Under the pieces are notes generated by a model. The model was not told the DNA's origin and searched no databases. It worked only from the letters and a program-made list of their open reading frames with translations. A stretch of DNA of 8,190 nt from Candidatus Eiseniibacteriota bacterium (GTDB taxonomy: Bacteria; JAFGKV01): positions 1 to 8,190 of the forward strand of contig JALOPK010000141.1 of NCBI GenBank assembly GCA_025453925.1. The letters are read 5' to 3'. This document shows positions 1,493 to 8,190 of the stretch, piece by piece. The first letter of the stretch is position 1. Each line of letters starts with the position of its first letter. The position numbers and the translations under genes were made by a program.

Positions 1493-1816
1493 CTAGTGCT
1501 GAGGTTCGATAGTGGCCGCCGTGCCATAGGCGAGGATTTCGGCCGCACCGCTCATGACTGATGTCGTGCTGAATCGGAGAGCTAGAACCGCATTGCCGCC
1601 AAGACGGGCCGCGTCTTCGAGCATCCGGTCGAGCGCCTGTTCCCTCGACTCGGCGATCATTTTGGTGTACTCCTCGATCTCGCCACCAGTGAGGTTCTTG
1701 ATTGCGGCAACGATGTCCTTGCCGATATCCTTCGCCCTGATGGTGTTCCCTTTGACCAACCCGAGCACTCTCGTGATCCGGAAACCAGGCACCGACTCAG
1801 TCGTCACCACGATCAT
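1493..1816 (-). CDS. YbjQ/UPF0145 family protein
   Basis: This small soluble protein of 107 aa matches the YbjQ/UPF0145 family (Pfam DUF74/YbjQ), sometimes named a putative heavy-metal-binding domain; its true function is unknown. The family pattern is clear: N-terminal VTTESVPGFRITRVLGLVKG, the central AKDIGKDIVAAIKNLTGGEI, a helix with REQALDRMLEDAARLGGNAVLAL, and a final beta hairpin ending in EILAYGTAATIEP. Length is typical (about 103-110 aa). AAGGAG at 1825-1830 lies 8 bases before the ATG. The ATG overlaps the stop of the upstream anti-sigma-type gene as ATGA (1813-1816), so the two are probably translated together. This makes it the third gene of the sigma-factor operon, which suggests, but does not prove, a role in envelope or metal stress. 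Confidence 0.88.
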   Translation of the reverse strand: MIVVTTESVPGFRITRVLGLVKGNTIRAKDIGKDIVAAIKNLTGGEIEEYTKMIAESREQALDRMLEDAARLGGNAVLALRFSTTSVMSGAAEILAYGTAATIEPQH

Positions 1817-2259
1817 CGTTGGATCTCCTTGTAGCGGTCATGGCGGAATGTGAGAAGCTTCTCCCGGACGGTCGAGGCGGTCAGCACGGCCATGCCGAGC
1901 GCCAGCAGCGCGCAGCCTGCGCGCACGGCCAGTGGGATTCCCGCATCCTGAAGCCATTCACGGCACGCGGCGTACAAGGCGTAGCACAGCAGCACGGTCG
2001 CCCCGGCGCCGGCGAGGATGTAGCCGGCGTTCCGCTCGAGGCGGTTGTACACCTGCCTCCAATGCTCATCCCACACTTGATCCGGGAGCTGCGATAGAGA
2101 CAACCCCTTCATGATTCCCTCCAGGCGCCGGAGCTGTTCCAGCTCCCGCCGGCAGTGAGGACAGCCATCAAGGTGCGCATTGAGCGCCGCTGCCTGCTCA
2201 TCAGACAGCCGACCATCGAGGAGTCCGCTCAGGAGGACGCCGGTTTCCTCACAGGTCAT
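1813..2259 (-). CDS. zinc-finger anti-sigma factor, two membrane helices
   Basis: This is a probable inner-membrane anti-sigma factor that would hold the adjacent ECF sigma factor inactive. The 148-aa product starts MTCEETG and has C3, H29, C33 and C36 in the putative zinc-finger pattern Hx3CxxC (zf-HC2 type). A linker follows, then two predicted membrane helices at about 79-99 and 109-130, and a basic tail ending DRYKEIQR. The chosen ATG (2257-2259) overlaps the sigma stop as TGATG and has AAGGA at 2266-2270, 6 bases upstream; an ATG at 2272-2274 would add only five residues. Most anti-sigma factors of this type have one membrane helix and an extracytoplasmic sensor. Here two helices with a short loop leave little outside the membrane, so the sensed signal may lie within the membrane or cytoplasm. 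Binding to the neighbouring sigma factor is inferred from gene order. Confidence 0.85.
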   Translation of the reverse strand: MTCEETGVLLSGLLDGRLSDEQAAALNAHLDGCPHCRRELEQLRRLEGIMKGLSLSQLPDQVWDEHWRQVYNRLERNAGYILAGAGATVLLCYALYAACREWLQDAGIPLAVRAGCALLALGMAVLTASTVREKLLTFRHDRYKEIQR

Positions 2260-2261
2260 CA
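2257..2261 (-). promoter_or_regulatory. TGATG stop/start overlap, translational coupling
   Basis: On the minus strand the sigma-factor TGA (2261-2259) shares its last base with the ATG of the anti-sigma gene (2259-2257). The Shine-Dalgarno site for the second gene lies inside the last codons of the first. Such an overlap usually keeps regulator and partner in fixed ratio. The next junction has a similar ATGA overlap (1813-1816). Confidence 0.75.
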
Positions 2262-2810
2262 GTCTTCCTTCCATGGGGCCATGCCTGCGGCCAGGGCCTT
2301 CCGTGCGTGATGCAGTCGCGACATGACTGTTCCGACCGGACAGCCGAGACTCCCGGCGATTTCCTCATAGGACAGATCCTGGAAATGGCGAAGGAGAATG
2401 ATCTCCCGGTGTTCGGGTTTCAGTTCCGCAAGTGCCCGGGCAAGATCGCGCCGGATCTCCACCGTCCTTGTGGAGTGATCGGTTTCTCCGCCCACGCGGT
2501 CGTCGAATTCCACGCATTCGCGGTCCCGCGACCGACGCGCGAGCCTCGACATGCACCGATTGCGGGCGATGGTGTAGAGCCAAGGGAAGAGCGGGGATCC
2601 CTGATGGAATCGAGGCAGTGCGCGCCAGGCTCGAATGAAAGTCTCCTGTGTCACATCCAGCGCCTCGTCACGATCAAGGAGTAGGCCGCTGGCAATCGAA
2701 AAGATGCGTGGTGCGTACATCCTGTACAGGTCTCCAAATGCGTCCTTGTGGCCAGACGATGCCGCACGGATGAGTTCCTGCTCACGCGGTGAGCTATCTT
2801 CCACGGACAT
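2259..2810 (-). CDS. ECF sigma factor (sigma-70 family, RpoE-like)
   Basis: This is an extracytoplasmic-function RNA polymerase sigma factor that would direct transcription of a stress regulon. With the ATG at 2808-2810 it is 183 aa, the family size. Region 2 spans about residues 25-93, with FGDLYRMYAPRIF, the DEALDVTQETFIRAWRAL segment that binds core polymerase and the -10 element, and PWLYTIARNRCMSRLARR. Region 4 spans about 123-173, with LKPEHREIILLRHFQDLSYEEIA followed by the helix-turn-helix GCPVGTVMSRLHHARKAL. GAAGGA lies 10 bases before this ATG. In-frame ATGs at 2858 and 2882 would add 16 or 24 residues unlike the family and lack a good ribosome site. It heads the operon with the anti-sigma and YbjQ-family genes. 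No clear ECF-type (GGAAC) autoregulatory promoter was seen in the upstream gap. Confidence 0.92.
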   Translation of the reverse strand: MSVEDSSPREQELIRAASSGHKDAFGDLYRMYAPRIFSIASGLLLDRDEALDVTQETFIRAWRALPRFHQGSPLFPWLYTIARNRCMSRLARRSRDRECVEFDDRVGGETDHSTRTVEIRRDLARALAELKPEHREIILLRHFQDLSYEEIAGSLGCPVGTVMSRLHHARKALAAGMAPWKED

Positions 2811-2987
2811 CGCAGTCGTATCCTTCGTTGCCTTTCCCGGATCATTTCGGCAACTCATACGCTGTACCCCACGGGCTCCCATCCTATTCTCGCCGCCTCT
2901 TGCACCGCGTGCTGCCGCCGTGTACCTTGCGCATGTGAGTTATCCCTTCACCTTCACCGGCCGCCCATCCAATCAAGGGGGATCACC

Positions 2988-3432: not shown

Positions 3433-3459
3433 GGCGGGCGGTCTCAGGGCCCGCCCGCC
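3433..3459. terminator. hairpin spanning the stop of the secreted-protein gene
   Basis: GGCGGGCGG (3433-3441) and CCGCCCGCC (3451-3459) pair perfectly over 9 bp with a 9-base loop. The stop codon of the minus-strand gene (3444-3446) lies in the loop. It sits between convergent genes, as a terminator would, but no T-run follows on either strand. Confidence 0.4.
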
Positions 3460-3908
3460 CCGCGCCGCGTGGGCACAGCCTCGGTGGGCCCGGTGGTCGA
3501 GGTTGACGCGGAGGGGAGGAAGGTCAGACTTCTCAGATTCACGATGTGTCCCCGCCATTCCACGCCCTGCCGCGTGGTTCCGAAGATCGAATCATTACCC
3601 CAGAGACGGCCGTTCCTCGTGCTGCCATCCCTAAGTTCGATGGACATCGCGATCATCCTGCCGTCGCTCCCGCTCCGATTGAAGGTAATGCGAAGGATGT
3701 CGCGGTAGGGTATCTGCGGTCGGTCATCTCCGTCGATGTAGCACAGCACGCGGACCGGCTGCCTGTCGAAGTATTCCCAGACGTTCAAAACCGTGTCCGA
3801 CTTTGCATCCGTGTAGACCACGGCTGCATCGTATTGCTCGACAGGTTCTGCGCCGGCCGAAAGAGCGACAGCCGCGAGCAGGGCAACCGCGACGGCTGAC
3901 ATTCGCAT
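3444..3908 (-). CDS. secreted or periplasmic protein of unknown family
   Basis: I do not recognise the family. From the ATG at 3906-3908 the product is 154 aa. It opens with a signal peptide: MRM, then the hydrophobic stretch AVAVALLAAVALSAGA, with AGA before a likely cut at residue 20. The mature part looks beta-rich: IPYRDILRITFN, then SIELRDGSTRNGRLWG and a repeat-like GTTRQGVEWRGHIVNLRSLTFLP. This pattern of short strands around 'LRDG...G.L.G' recalls small beta-barrel domains in exported proteins. The tail is rich in S, T, P and G. The start is uncertain. AGGAGG at 3921-3926 is 12 bases from this ATG but only 6 from an in-frame TTG at 3912-3914, and an ATG at 3936-3938 would add ten residues with a more basic signal start. 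It lies 135 bp downstream of the HD-GYP-like gene on the same strand and may share its transcript. Confidence 0.75.
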   Translation of the reverse strand: MRMSAVAVALLAAVALSAGAEPVEQYDAAVVYTDAKSDTVLNVWEYFDRQPVRVLCYIDGDDRPQIPYRDILRITFNRSGSDGRMIAMSIELRDGSTRNGRLWGNDSIFGTTRQGVEWRGHIVNLRSLTFLPSASTSTTGPTEAVPTRRGAGGP

Positions 3909-3958
3909 CGCCAAAGGAGTCCTCCTAGTCTTTTCCATGTGCGCGGGCTCTCAGGTCA

Positions 3959-4043: not shown

Positions 4044-5450
4044 CTACGCGCCGCCCACGAGCGAGCGCAGAAACGGCCCGGGCTCGATGCCCCGCTCACG
4101 TGGGTCGAATGCCCCGATGATGGAGATCGCAGCCCCCGATGCCGCCAGATCCAGGTGCGACGGCCTGTCGAGCACTCTCCCGGAGTCGTCGGCAATGATG
4201 CGCACCCCGGGCCGCAGGACATGCCGCGGGTTGTTCGTCACCACAAGTGCCCACCGCCCGTCACTGAGGTCGACGAAGGTACCCGGAGCGAATACTCCCA
4301 CCGTCGCCACGAACGCGGCGAAGAGCCTCGCATCGTATGCCCTTCCGGCGTCCTTCGAGAGTCTGAGAATCGCCTGGTCGCTTCTCAGAGCGGGGCGCCC
4401 TGCACGCTCCGACACCAGGTCAACGAATTCGTCCGCCAGGCCGACCAATTCGGCCATCGGATGCACCAGCCGCTTGCCGGGCACGCAGGGGTATCCGCTG
4501 AGATCGTGCAGCATATGATGCTCAAAGGCCACCACCACGCTCAATCGGTCGACGTTCTTGCTCGCCAGCAGCAGTCGGGCGCCTTCGACGGGGTGGGACT
4601 GGTAGATCTGCTGGTTCTCCAGGGCCGAGTCCCTCGTCAGTCCCAGCGCGAGGAGCCCCACGTCGTAGAGGAATGATGCCGTGCCGAGGGCTTGCACCTC
4701 CTCGATTCCGAGACCGAGCCTCCGCCCGTGGCCCACTGCGAGCGCCGTCACTCGCACCAAGCGGGTGAGCCATCGATCCTCGTGACCCTCCATGAGGGCC
4801 AGAGACAGCAAGGGAGAATCCCCCTCCACGAGGGCCTGGGTCAGCTCATAGACATAGGAGCGCGCGGGATCCGAGGGGATGGGCCGATGTGACTCCACAC
4901 TCTCGATGATTCCGTCGAGTCCGGTTCTCGCCTGCACGATCAGGTTCGAGCGGTCACGGGTAGCGGTCGCCGGCCTGATCGCGGGCGCCATGTCATCTTT
5001 TGCCTGCAGGGGCGTGGGCGTGAGGCGCTCCAGGGTGATGGTACGCACCCCCCTGGCGTGCAGTACCCTCTGCACGCCCCCACCCTCCGTCACTTCCTCG
5101 GGCGTTCGCTGCAGGATGTCGACCAGTTCGCTGAGGTCCGCGACGCAGCATCCCTGGCTGAAGGAGACCCGATCCACGCCATGCCCCTGCAGAACGCGCA
5201 GGAGGTAGGATGCCGCCGACGAAGCGCGGTAGGAGTCCCCATCGTCGAACACGATTTCCTCCCCCAGAACCCCCAGGTGCACCGCAGTCCGGCGACGCAA
5301 CAGCATCGTCAGCTCTTCCTCGGCCCGGGCGAGTCCTGTCGCGATCGACTGATGCCCGCGCGGATAGAGCTGCGCGACACGAAGTGCGCTGTTGAGGGAA
5401 CGAAGCAGATCGTCGACACTCCCGACTGCAGGGCTTCCGGGAGGGCTCAT
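4044..5450 (-). CDS. degenerate HD-GYP domain protein with LYPxxH N-terminal module
   Basis: This soluble 468-aa protein has two parts. Residues about 13-145 form a helix-rich module with LYPRGH (28-33), LGVLGEEIVFDD and LLRVLQGHGVDRVSF; the same layout is seen in the protein encoded just upstream. Residues about 220-380 are HD-GYP-like, the fold of cyclic-di-GMP phosphodiesterases. SHPVEGARLL with H286, EHH with H311 and H312, D316, SGYP (318-321) and ADEFVDL with D340 are kept. The HD pair is YD (Y262, D263), the usual following lysine is L266, and the first conserved histidine appears as R230. The rest, WALVVTNNPRHVLRPGVRII, resembles the beta extension common after HD-GYP domains. Loss of metal ligands suggests binding or regulation rather than catalysis. 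The ATG at 5450 has AAGGGAG 4 bases upstream and overlaps the previous stop as ATGA; an upstream in-frame ATG at 5513 lies inside that gene. Confidence 0.85.
   Translation of the reverse strand: MSPPGSPAVGSVDDLLRSLNSALRVAQLYPRGHQSIATGLARAEEELTMLLRRRTAVHLGVLGEEIVFDDGDSYRASSAASYLLRVLQGHGVDRVSFSQGCCVADLSELVDILQRTPEEVTEGGGVQRVLHARGVRTITLERLTPTPLQAKDDMAPAIRPATATRDRSNLIVQARTGLDGIIESVESHRPIPSDPARSYVYELTQALVEGDSPLLSLALMEGHEDRWLTRLVRVTALAVGHGRRLGLGIEEVQALGTASFLYDVGLLALGLTRDSALENQQIYQSHPVEGARLLLASKNVDRLSVVVAFEHHMLHDLSGYPCVPGKRLVHPMAELVGLADEFVDLVSERAGRPALRSDQAILRLSKDAGRAYDARLFAAFVATVGVFAPGTFVDLSDGRWALVVTNNPRHVLRPGVRIIADDSGRVLDRPSHLDLAASGAAISIIGAFDPRERGIEPGPFLRSLVGGA
5447..5450 (-). promoter_or_regulatory. 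ATGA overlap coupling the solenoid and HD-GYP-like genes
   Basis: On the minus strand the ATG of the HD-GYP-like gene (5450-5448) overlaps the TGA of the upstream gene (5449-5447). The ribosome site AAGGGAG (5461-5455) lies within the last codons of the upstream gene. This supports a strict two-gene unit with coupled translation. Confidence 0.75.
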
Positions 5451-7660
5451 GAGGCTCCCTTTTCGTCCCGCAGGGCCTGGCGGCACGCTCTGCCTGCCAG
5501 CCCCACTCCCCACCGTCCCCGTCGGGCGACAAAGGCTCGACCCTTTGGGGTATCCAGACGCAACAGCGCCCGCGCGCTGGGCAAAACGAGCTTCTCATCA
5601 CGGGTGTACTTGGTCCAGCTCCCCGCAGACCGTATCACTTCCTGCAGCTCCTCGAGGAGCGAGTCCAATCTCTGGCTGCCCGCCAGCGCAATTGCCGCTC
5701 CTCGCACCGCGAGGAACTCGGCGTCGTCACGATGTCCCCTGATCAGTGCCGAGAGACCGGCGACGACACGCCGCGCGCCAAGTTCGGCGCACGCGTCGAG
5801 TGCTACCTGCACCACTCTAGGAGCCGGATCCAGGAGGCCCTGTTCCACGGCGGCCATCCGCCGATCGCCGCCGATTCGAATGGCCGTGGCAAGCGCCGCA
5901 GCACGTACCTCTGCGTCCCGGTGCCCAAGCAGGGCCTCGACCTTGCCGATCACCCTTCCTGACCCGTCTCGCCGGAGGATGAACAGCGCCTCACGGACCA
6001 TGCGCGTATCCGTGTGGGTCAGCCATTGGACTAACTCGTCCTCCGCCGGCGGGCCGTACTTCGCAGCCTCGCCCCGCAGTTCCTCGCAGACATCCCAGTC
6101 CGTTGAGCGGGCCAATGCGGTCATCACCGCGCGGAAGCCCTGGCCACCAAAGGCGAGGGCGGTTTCCCGGGCCGCCGCGCGCAAGCCCGGATCGAGGGCG
6201 ACCATCGCGGAGGCGAGATGGTCGGTGAGAGCGACGCTCAGCAAACGCCCAAGGGCCTCATGCGGTGAGTAGCCACGCGAGACCAGTTCCGCGGCCAGTT
6301 CCTGCACGACGCGCCGCAGCTCATCGAAGCCGCCGGCCTCGGCCAATCGCAGGAACTCTCCGTGGTAGGTGGAGAGGATGAGATCGACCTCCTCGGGGGT
6401 GCTGCTGAAGCAGAGCAGCCCCTTCAGATCGTCGACGTAGCTCGCGCGCAAGGCCTCCTCTCCGAGGGCTTCCCGGAACCAGAGGTCTTCCGCGATCGGC
6501 TGAGCCTGCTGCGGATGCTCGGCAAGGAGTGAGGAGAACAGGGGATCGGTGTCGCCGCGAAACCCCTCTCCCCGCACGACGCGCTCCTCCCACCAACGCA
6601 TGACCTCGGCCCGGCGTTGCTCGGGCACACCATGCAGCACGAGGCGCGATGCGACGAGCGGCTCCAACGCGAGCCTGCGCTCGGAATCTGGCAATAGGTC
6701 GCGGATCACGACCGCCAGACCGTCATCCAGCTCCGGCCTCTCCGCCAGCGCATCCACAATGGCGACGGCAAGCTCCCCGTTGGCCATTTCGTCGGCCGGA
6801 GTCGGCGACCGATCCCTGGCACGCGGGGCAGTGCCAAGCAGTTCGGGGCGCCTCTGCAGCAAGATGCTCGAGTCCAGCGACAGCGCCGCCTCCACCAGAG
6901 TCTTCCGTAACGACACCCACCGCTCGGGGTAGAGATTCCGCAGCCGGTCCGCCAGCACGTCCAGCGCACCCACCGTTCCCTCGACGAGGGGGGCTTGGTC
7001 GTGCGCGACGGGCCGGGGACCCTTGAGGCTCAGTTCCACCAGCCGGGCCAGCGACGCGCGATCCTCCGAGAGCCGGCCGAGGGCTTCGAGTTCCTCATCG
7101 CTCATCTGCCGCTCGGCGGACCGCGGATCCCACAGCGTGAGAAGCCGTGCGAAATGCTCTTCGTTCCGCTCCCCGACCTCAGCCGGCCGTCCCACCCCAT
7201 CCATGAAGAGCCTGCCATAGTCCAACGGCAGCAGAGTGATTCGACCGAGCCCGTGCTCGGCCGCGAGTTCCGCGAGGGTTCTCTTGTGCGCTGCCCGACG
7301 GGTATCGGACGAGAGGACTCTCAAGAACCCCGAGAGCTCGGTCGACGATACGTCGGGGGGAAACACCACCGAGGCGAGACCAAGCCGGAGAAATCGATCC
7401 GAGAAACCCTGCGGGACCTCGAGCGGCACCTCGGGGGGTTGGTCGTTGAGAAAACACTCCTGCTTGTAGACGGTAAGCTTCACGGCCGTGGCGTCGGCGG
7501 CCAGGGCCGCCACTGCCACGCGGAGAGACTCGAGAGCCTCCTGGTAGCGGGGGTGCGCGTCGGGGTAGAGCGACGCGCTCCGGCGGGCGGCTTCGGTCTC
7601 GGCCATGAGCCCGGCAATCCTCCCGGAGATGGTGTCGCGCGTGTGAGGGGTGCCCACCAT
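5447..7660 (-). CDS. HEAT-repeat-type solenoid protein with LYPxxH N-terminal module
   Basis: This large cytoplasmic-looking protein (737 aa, no signal peptide or membrane helix seen) is probably a scaffold or binding protein; no catalytic motif is visible. Residues about 13-149 form the module shared with the next gene: SLYPDAH (30-36), a strand with VKLTVYKQECFLNDQ, FLRLGLASVVF (90-100), ELSGFLRVL and GLGRITLLPLD (137-147). The middle, about 150-515, is almost all predicted helix without a recognised family. The last 200 residues contain HEAT-like helix pairs, for example near 542-565, 574-597 (LLGHRDAEVRAAALATAIRIG), 606-628 and 636-661. The start at 7660 has AGGAG (7670-7674) 9 bases upstream. 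A second ATG at 7606 would cut into the N-terminal module. The frame stays open to 8035, but that stretch overlaps the divergent enzyme I gene and is rejected. It is the first gene of the minus-strand group. Confidence 0.83.
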   Translation of the reverse strand: MVGTPHTRDTISGRIAGLMAETEAARRSASLYPDAHPRYQEALESLRVAVAALAADATAVKLTVYKQECFLNDQPPEVPLEVPQGFSDRFLRLGLASVVFPPDVSSTELSGFLRVLSSDTRRAAHKRTLAELAAEHGLGRITLLPLDYGRLFMDGVGRPAEVGERNEEHFARLLTLWDPRSAERQMSDEELEALGRLSEDRASLARLVELSLKGPRPVAHDQAPLVEGTVGALDVLADRLRNLYPERWVSLRKTLVEAALSLDSSILLQRRPELLGTAPRARDRSPTPADEMANGELAVAIVDALAERPELDDGLAVVIRDLLPDSERRLALEPLVASRLVLHGVPEQRRAEVMRWWEERVVRGEGFRGDTDPLFSSLLAEHPQQAQPIAEDLWFREALGEEALRASYVDDLKGLLCFSSTPEEVDLILSTYHGEFLRLAEAGGFDELRRVVQELAAELVSRGYSPHEALGRLLSVALTDHLASAMVALDPGLRAAARETALAFGGQGFRAVMTALARSTDWDVCEELRGEAAKYGPPAEDELVQWLTHTDTRMVREALFILRRDGSGRVIGKVEALLGHRDAEVRAAALATAIRIGGDRRMAAVEQGLLDPAPRVVQVALDACAELGARRVVAGLSALIRGHRDDAEFLAVRGAAIALAGSQRLDSLLEELQEVIRSAGSWTKYTRDEKLVLPSARALLRLDTPKGRAFVARRGRWGVGLAGRACRQALRDEKGAS

Positions 7661-7793: not shown

Positions 7794-7883
7794 CTGGCCT
7801 TCCGGGGGGGTTTCGTGTCGTGATGGGTAATCGACATGATGCTGTCTGCTACGCGACCCCATGCACCTCGGGGTGGAGACATC

Positions 7884-8190
7884 GTGGAAAATCGGCAGTC
7901 CAGAGTATTCCGGGGCCTCCCAGTCGCCGAGGGCGTCGCTCTCGGGCGCGCCTTCCTGTACACGACTGACGTGTCATGCGTGCTGAAGAGGGAGATCCCC
8001 GAAGGTGAGGTGGAACGGGAGATCATCCGTTTCATCGAGGCGAGGGAATCGGTCGGGAAATACTACCAGACCGCGGTAGAGGAGGCCGCCCGCGACCTCG
8101 GGCCCGAGGAAGCGGAGATACTGCGCAGCCATCTCCTCATCGTTCGAGACCCCCATTTCGTTGATGAGCTTCCCGAGTTGATCCGAATTG
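7884..8190 (+). CDS. ptsI: PTS enzyme I (PEP-protein phosphotransferase), 5' partial
   Basis: This gene runs off the right edge after 102 codons of an expected 570 or so. The translated start reads ENRQSRVFRGLPVAEGVALG, matching the enzyme I N-terminus (G-x-P-V-x-x-G-V-A-x-G). It continues with REIPEGEVEREIIRFIEARES, then DLGPEEAEILRSHLLIVRDP, the helical HPr-binding domain where family members have 'EEAAIF.AHLLLL.DP'. Enzyme I takes phosphate from phosphoenolpyruvate and passes it through a histidine to HPr, driving sugar uptake or regulation. The active-site histidine and PEP-binding barrel lie beyond the window. GTG at 7884 is chosen because GGAG at 7875-7878 is 5 bases upstream; in-frame ATGs at 7836 and 7839 would add 15-16 residues unlike the family. 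The related nitrogen-PTS form (PtsP) usually has a GAF domain first, which is absent. The gene is divergent from the solenoid gene. Confidence 0.85.
   Translation, partial: MENRQSRVFRGLPVAEGVALGRAFLYTTDVSCVLKREIPEGEVEREIIRFIEARESVGKYYQTAVEEAARDLGPEEAEILRSHLLIVRDPHFVDELPELIRI

Follow-up and report, generated by a model that had tools for sequence, protein, structure and literature searches.

The bacterial contig JALOPK010000141.1, analysed over its whole length of 8190 bases (the window; G000:C143 in a 3.9-Mb genome of 502 contigs, placed in Candidatus Fermentibacteria), carries two overlapping genes whose products both begin with one homologous module of about 135 residues. In P0002, the product of gene 1, the module precedes a HEAT-type helical solenoid; in P0001, the product of gene 2, it precedes an HD-GYP domain with a degenerate catalytic site. 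HD-GYP proteins are among the main phosphodiesterases of cyclic di-GMP (c-di-GMP), and their control is known mostly from Proteobacteria. The two genes are read here, with a probability of roughly 0.55, as a conserved two-subunit cyclic-dinucleotide signalling unit, joined via the shared module and using the HEAT arm as scaffold. The module is named LYP, a label coined for this analysis from its YPxxHP motif, and the elements on which the argument depends are the following.

Positions 5447 to 7660, minus strand: gene 1 (P0002, 737 amino acids), LYP module and HEAT-type helical solenoid; ATG at 7660.
Positions 4044 to 5450, minus strand: gene 2 (P0001, 468 amino acids), LYP module, degenerate HD-GYP domain (Pfam HD_5) and C-terminal beta-rich domain.
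Positions 5447 to 5450, minus strand: ATGA overlap, with the gene 2 start codon over the gene 1 stop codon.
Positions 7220 to 7621, minus strand: LYP module of gene 1, residues 14-147 (hhalign; A4 profile match at 7211-7609, E 1.6e-25 in its own genome).
Positions 5019 to 5420, minus strand: LYP module of gene 2, residues 11-144 (hhalign; A4 profile match at 5016-5417, E 9.7e-29).

Regarding the homology of the two modules, the claim rests on profiles because direct BLASTP of P0001 against P0002 was not significant, a 61-residue N-terminal segment reaching an E value of 0.22. With three Fermentibacteria sequences per side, hhalign gave a probability of 94.5 and an E value of 7.4e-8; with 16 against 17 sequences these became 99.7 and 9.3e-27, and with the window's own family removed, 99.7 and 6.5e-26. 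Full-length profiles (99.1, E 1.6e-18) paired residues 11-144 of P0001 with 14-147 of P0002 over 134 columns, free of gaps. In an iterated search of all open reading frames (ORFs), 109 domains fell below 1e-4, while the top match to a reversed ORF stood at 0.14 in the last round and 0.011 in the first; these controls, together with the family-excluded comparison, rule out a chance similarity of the two N-termini. A sequence-only reading of the window had proposed the shared module from motifs matching in order and spacing between the two proteins: the motifs it listed are indeed present in both, in register, and the profile comparison bears the proposal out. The most conserved feature is YPxxHP, located between the first two helices.

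The predicted folds agree as well. In AlphaFold2 models, built from relatives collected in this analysis only, the predicted local distance difference test score (pLDDT) of the module is mostly 85-98 on average in both proteins, and both models show the same order: a pair of long helices followed by strands, then one helix, one strand, a run of three helices and, at the end, another strand. In P0001 these correspond to helices 7-28 and 34-51, strands 56-62 and 65-69, helix 81-89, strand 94-98, helices 103-113, 117-122 and 126-132, and strand 138-141; in P0002, to helices 11-31 and 37-53, strands 60-65 and 68-71, helix 84-93, strand 95-100, helices 106-117, 120-123 and 129-135, and strand 142-145. 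An extra short strand (74-77) occurs in the P0001 module and not in that of P0002.

The earlier reader knew no established name for the module, and no coherent match emerged from Pfam or, by sequence, from the PDB. Pfam matched nothing in the first 150 residues of either protein, and among 72 diverse modules no Pfam family, PAS and GAF included, was hit by more than one member; NCBIfam, run on representative proteins, recognized HD, GGDEF or repeat parts only. PDB sequence matches to the module (Octarellin V.1, 5e-6; a designed cytochrome, 3e-5) were weak, involved designed or unrelated proteins, and were taken as composition artefacts. Finally, structure searches with the whole models, dominated by the HD-GYP and HEAT parts, gave no match confined to the module. 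No description of module or pair was found in the open-access literature searched (subscription journals and InterPro lay outside the search), in Pfam, or by sequence in the PDB, and HEAT is not mentioned in a review of c-di-GMP sensing; both are apparently previously undescribed.

As for the HD-GYP half, P0001 contains the following elements.

Positions 4323 to 4772, minus strand: HD-GYP domain (Pfam HD_5), residues 227-376, from Pfam and structural match.
Positions 4761 to 4763, minus strand: R230, at the ligand-histidine position (H189 of PmGH), by alignment.
Positions 4662 to 4667, minus strand: Y262-D263, where an HD dyad is expected, by alignment; L266 occupies the lysine position three residues on.
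Positions 4488 to 4496, minus strand: GYP motif kept, residues 319-321, by alignment.
Positions 4068 to 4298, minus strand: C-terminal beta-rich domain, residues ~385-461, from alignment and model strands.

HD_5 scores 41.1 bits against a Pfam cut-off of 27.2 (E 2e-10); the model (pLDDT 85) has Bd1817 as its top structural match (PDB 3tm8; Z 23, 218 residues, 3.0 Å), and PmGH (4mcw) and PA4781 (4r8z) match the HD-GYP part too, in agreement with the HD-GYP-like character proposed beforehand. P0001 keeps H286, H311, H312 and D340, at the positions of H250, H276, H277 and D305 of PmGH, as well as GYP; the positions of H189, H221 (the dyad histidine) and K225 are taken by R230, Y262 and L266, respectively (the E185 position was left out of the ligand scoring). 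In PmGH, H189, H221, D222 and K225 are among the catalytic positions, and alanine at H189, H221 or K225 abolishes or strongly reduces activity; RpfG is thought able to dispense with the H189 position (PMC4159591). Because three positions needed in PmGH are lost, P0001 is predicted to lack phosphodiesterase activity, and it is probably a pseudo-phosphodiesterase that does not hydrolyse c-di-GMP. Its closest named relatives, two proteins of Candidatus Fermentibacteria with 67% and 53% identity, also have the YD dyad, and GFP where P0001 has GYP. Elsewhere the site is better preserved: 34 of 41 HD-GYP proteins from pairs of other lineages keep all scored ligands, and some of the other seven may be alignment faults. 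With the scored residues kept, the HD-GYP half should be a phosphodiesterase in most lineages. The C-terminal beta-rich domain is kept in most HD-GYP proteins of the pairs, as judged by alignment. The sequence-only reading had included neither the degenerate catalytic site nor the tie to c-di-GMP signalling.

The other product had been expected to give a helical scaffold, and two elements of gene 1 support a solenoid.

Positions 5450 to 6979, minus strand: helical solenoid, residues ~228-737, from Pfam, AlphaFold2 model and structural match.
Positions 5798 to 6040, minus strand: HEAT_2 match, residues 541-621, from Pfam.

The HEAT_2 match lies above threshold (28.8 bits against a Pfam cut-off of 27.7), and the model of P0002 is a solenoid (pLDDT 82) that aligns with HEAT and alphaRep solenoids at Z up to 17 in VIA-align.

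The pair is not confined to this genome. The module profile matches in 105 of 386 diverse bacterial genomes and 89 of 326 genera; in one small phylum every one of the five genomes has it, and in a second phylum four out of five do. The pair itself recurs, with a constant gene order, in over a dozen lineages of bacteria. Named loci that bear it, which were picked via the HD-GYP domain and not via pairing, belong to Omnitrophota, Armatimonadota, Actinomycetota (including Geothermincola), KSB1, Aminicenantes, Zixibacteria, Nitrospiraceae, Desulfobacteraceae, Desulfuromonas and Methylomirabilota. Of the 57 module-bearing HD-GYP genes in the first set, 51 directly follow a gene that also carries the module, and each of the other six sits at the end of a contig, in two cases beside a gene cut by that end; a partner is present for every such gene with sufficient upstream sequence. 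In a total of 109 pairs, which includes later fetching partly aimed at pairs, the gene for the module and HEAT or helical part always comes first and the gene for the module and HD-GYP second, on the same strand (109/109); the two genes mostly overlap or are separated by a few bases, and the distance from the HEAT stop codon to the second module is at most 100 nt in 95 of them, with a median of 23 nt. In the window the ATGA overlap named by the earlier reader is present, and putative ribosome-binding sites precede gene 1 (AGGAG, 7674-7670) and gene 2 (AGGGAG, 5460-5455, within gene 1); the overlap suggests that the two genes would be translationally coupled. Flanking genes vary by lineage, so that the pair itself is the unit. 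Conserved neighbours were dropped as a functional clue, none being common across lineages: MurC adjoins the second pair of this genome, FtsQ-like genes occur in some Omnitrophota, and ptsI in Fermentibacteria. In several Omnitrophota (L060, L064, L067, L069, L073 and L077), an FtsQ-like membrane gene and a gene of ~380 residues that looks, by eye, like FtsA/PilM lie 5' of the pair, and one contig (L171:4581-10996) carries two full pairs in tandem.

In a tree of 136 modules, built on few columns and with many of its forks weak, the HEAT-type modules fall into clades apart from the HD-type ones (14 label changes, as compared with 57 when labels are shuffled), and the clades mirror each other, the same loci grouping together on either side. 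Where a single genome has two pairs (L175/L176, L172/L178, L171), these are closest to each other both by their HEAT modules and by their HD modules; therefore the pair duplicates as a unit. Distances between HEAT modules and between HD modules correlate with r = 0.78 over 59 pairs, a value equalled in none of 2000 permutations, of which none exceeded 0.13; the HD module follows its own catalytic domain less closely (r = 0.66). Taken together, trees and gene arrangement show a pair that is inherited and duplicated as a unit and arranged for co-transcription; the co-divergence of the modules supports their coupling, though it is not proof of contact.

The module also occurs in other arrangements. 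Two proteins combine GGDEF, AAA_16, the LYP module and HEAT in one chain (L159:1183-5880, 1565 amino acids; L160:4340-7954, 1204 amino acids), with no HD-GYP gene seen adjacent in either neighbourhood. Proteins of ~900 residues (L161:5724-8516, L163:6006-8729, L165:800-3520, L169:5487-8126 and L039:7200-9905) carry LYP-HEAT behind a helical N-terminal extension of ~230 residues and have no HD-GYP partner, and one HEAT partner (L170:5949-8051) has two tandem LYP modules, at residues 20-145 and 157-289. Because GGDEF-AAA-LYP-HEAT chains, lone LYP-HEAT proteins and pairs with HD-GYP all occur, LYP-HEAT is the common element, to which enzymes of c-di-GMP synthesis are joined in cis and those of breakdown in trans. 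In two genomes (L212:1-3653 and L217:1570-5281), a lone LYP-HEAT gene is directly followed by a gene resembling guaA (GMP synthase), and a link to guanine nucleotide supply is possible there.

In the proposed mechanism, the LYP modules of the two products would bind each other to give a heteromeric complex, the HEAT solenoid would be an arm holding a target or an input, and the HD-GYP domain would read or remove c-di-GMP, acting as a phosphodiesterase in most lineages. That the modules pair physically, as the sequence-only reading had supposed, is backed indirectly by the strict linkage, the mirrored trees and the one protein with tandem modules. As for the signal, c-di-GMP is suggested by the HD-GYP fold, the 34 ligand-complete members, the GGDEF-AAA-LYP-HEAT chains and 11 GGDEF matches in this genome; the genome has other strong HD_5 matches as well, so c-di-GMP turnover proceeds there through other proteins. 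In P0001 itself the histidine of the dyad is gone, as are a further ligand histidine and the lysine with a stabilising role, and GYP and four other ligands remain; P0001 would therefore most likely be a non-cleaving binder of c-di-GMP, or of a protein partner only, and may signal via its HEAT partner in a manner comparable to the receptor DvhD.

Several observations weigh against the proposal of a two-subunit signalling unit. About 15 LYP-HEAT proteins have no HD-GYP partner, hence the module does not require the pair; some Omnitrophota partners have no HEAT repeats recognized by Pfam (23 of 35 have them); the co-divergence of the modules is also expected from common ancestry and linkage; and a mean-field direct-coupling analysis of 106 pairs (effective number of sequences, 94) gave no usable contacts, its scores not looking like contacts even inside a module. 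In addition, the same genome has a second, diverged pair (C392; L035:6170-9572), which precedes a MurC/Mpl-like gene here as in the two other Fermentibacteria genomes and whose HD-GYP half has lost both HD and GYP and falls below Pfam detection; because GYP is lost too, this argues that even nucleotide binding may be dispensable there. Finally, the three Fermentibacteria genomes yielded no PilZ effector.

The partnerless LYP-HEAT proteins and the GGDEF-AAA-LYP-HEAT chains are what an alternative would lead one to expect in which the module serves each protein separately, for sensing (a role also named in the sequence-only reading) or for homodimerisation, as PAS or GAF domains do, so that both respond to the same cue in one pathway and do not bind each other; it also has in its favour that sensory domains, the subject of a review (PMC8846402), are commonly N-terminal to HD-GYP and that HD-GYP domains are known as homodimers. 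This alternative is considered unlikely, although it deserves attention, since it has to contend with the strict one-to-one linkage and fixed order in 109/109 pairs, and with a module that tracks the module of its partner better than its own catalytic domain (0.78 versus 0.66).

The gene order, with HEAT always first, the translational overlap and the complete active-site residues of most lineages would equally suit a HEAT protein that is a dedicated inhibitor or activator of the HD-GYP enzyme, the latter having degenerated to a decoy in Fermentibacteria; however, the presence of the same module on both proteins is left unexplained, as is the retention of both genes after catalytic residues were lost in two paralogous pairs, and this explanation appears improbable. 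Lastly, the HD-GYP half could act on a ligand other than c-di-GMP, such as 3',3'-cyclic GMP-AMP (3',3'-cGAMP), for which HD-GYP enzymes are known, V-cGAP3 being among the sequence and structure matches; Hypr-type GGDEF proteins can also make cGAMP (PMC13090378). The GGDEF fusions of LYP-HEAT and the many GGDEF proteins of the genome favour c-di-GMP, and such another ligand is very improbable.

A wider proposal built on the two-subunit unit is put at slightly less than even odds: LYP may be a new dimerisation domain of ancient, very widespread two-subunit c-di-GMP devices, each made of a HEAT arm and an HD-GYP protein, whether enzyme or pseudo-enzyme; in single-chain variants the HEAT arm would instead bear a GGDEF cyclase and an AAA ATPase, and these devices may form an uncharted branch in mostly uncultured phyla. 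A module that none of the libraries searched describes, present in roughly one in four genomes of a diverse sample and always tied to a second, module-bearing scaffold gene, suggests a general mode of control, apparently overlooked because its best examples sit in uncultured phyla. It would give names and testable partners to what are likely thousands of "HEAT repeat" and "HD domain" annotations, and, since complete and degenerate active sites coexist within one pair family, it can be asked whether the signal is catalysis or binding.

Around the pair, a divergent ptsI gene starts upstream (7836-8190, plus strand; N-terminal domain of a PEP-utilising enzyme, PEP being phosphoenolpyruvate), as it does in both other Fermentibacteria genomes, and a 164-residue, probably exported protein that matches no Pfam family lies 3' of the pair (3444-3938, minus strand) and is conserved beside it in those two genomes too. 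Further away (1813-2882, minus strand), a gene for an extracytoplasmic function (ECF) sigma factor overlaps that of an anti-sigma factor of the zinc-finger type, and a gene of the YbjQ family comes next. PADLOC found no anti-phage defence match among the window proteins, and a defence role for the pair was dropped.

Compared with known systems, the HEAT half resembles HEAT-repeat scaffolds such as the PP2A A subunit, the importins and alphaRep in its HEAT_2 repeats and superhelical solenoid; it differs from them in being bacterial, in having the LYP module in front and, in the pair context, in always accompanying a module-bearing HD-GYP protein. The HD-GYP proteins share with PmGH and PA4781 the fold and, across the pair family, most metal-ligand positions, but they have an undescribed N-terminal module and a HEAT partner gene that looks obligate, and P0001 further departs from both in its YD dyad and the loss of two more catalytic positions.

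Bd1817 of Bdellovibrio is likewise an unconventional, inactive member and resembles P0001 in the HD-GYP part; the match spans residues 159-385 of the P0001 model and leaves the LYP module outside, and the defects are reversed, Bd1817 lacking the GYP tyrosine and keeping HD, whereas P0001 keeps GYP and has lost HD. Finally, DvhD of Desulfovibrio vulgaris (PDB 9rbz and 9rc0) has an HD-GYP domain with lost metal ligands and is a c-di-GMP receptor that does not cleave it (PMC13090378). P0001 is similar in its loss of metal ligands, its binding of c-di-GMP being a prediction; DvhD, however, has a periplasmic dCache and a PAS domain and no HEAT partner, while Pfam finds in P0001 HD_5 alone, with no dCache or PAS upstream, and residues 1 to ~165 are occupied by the LYP module and a linker.

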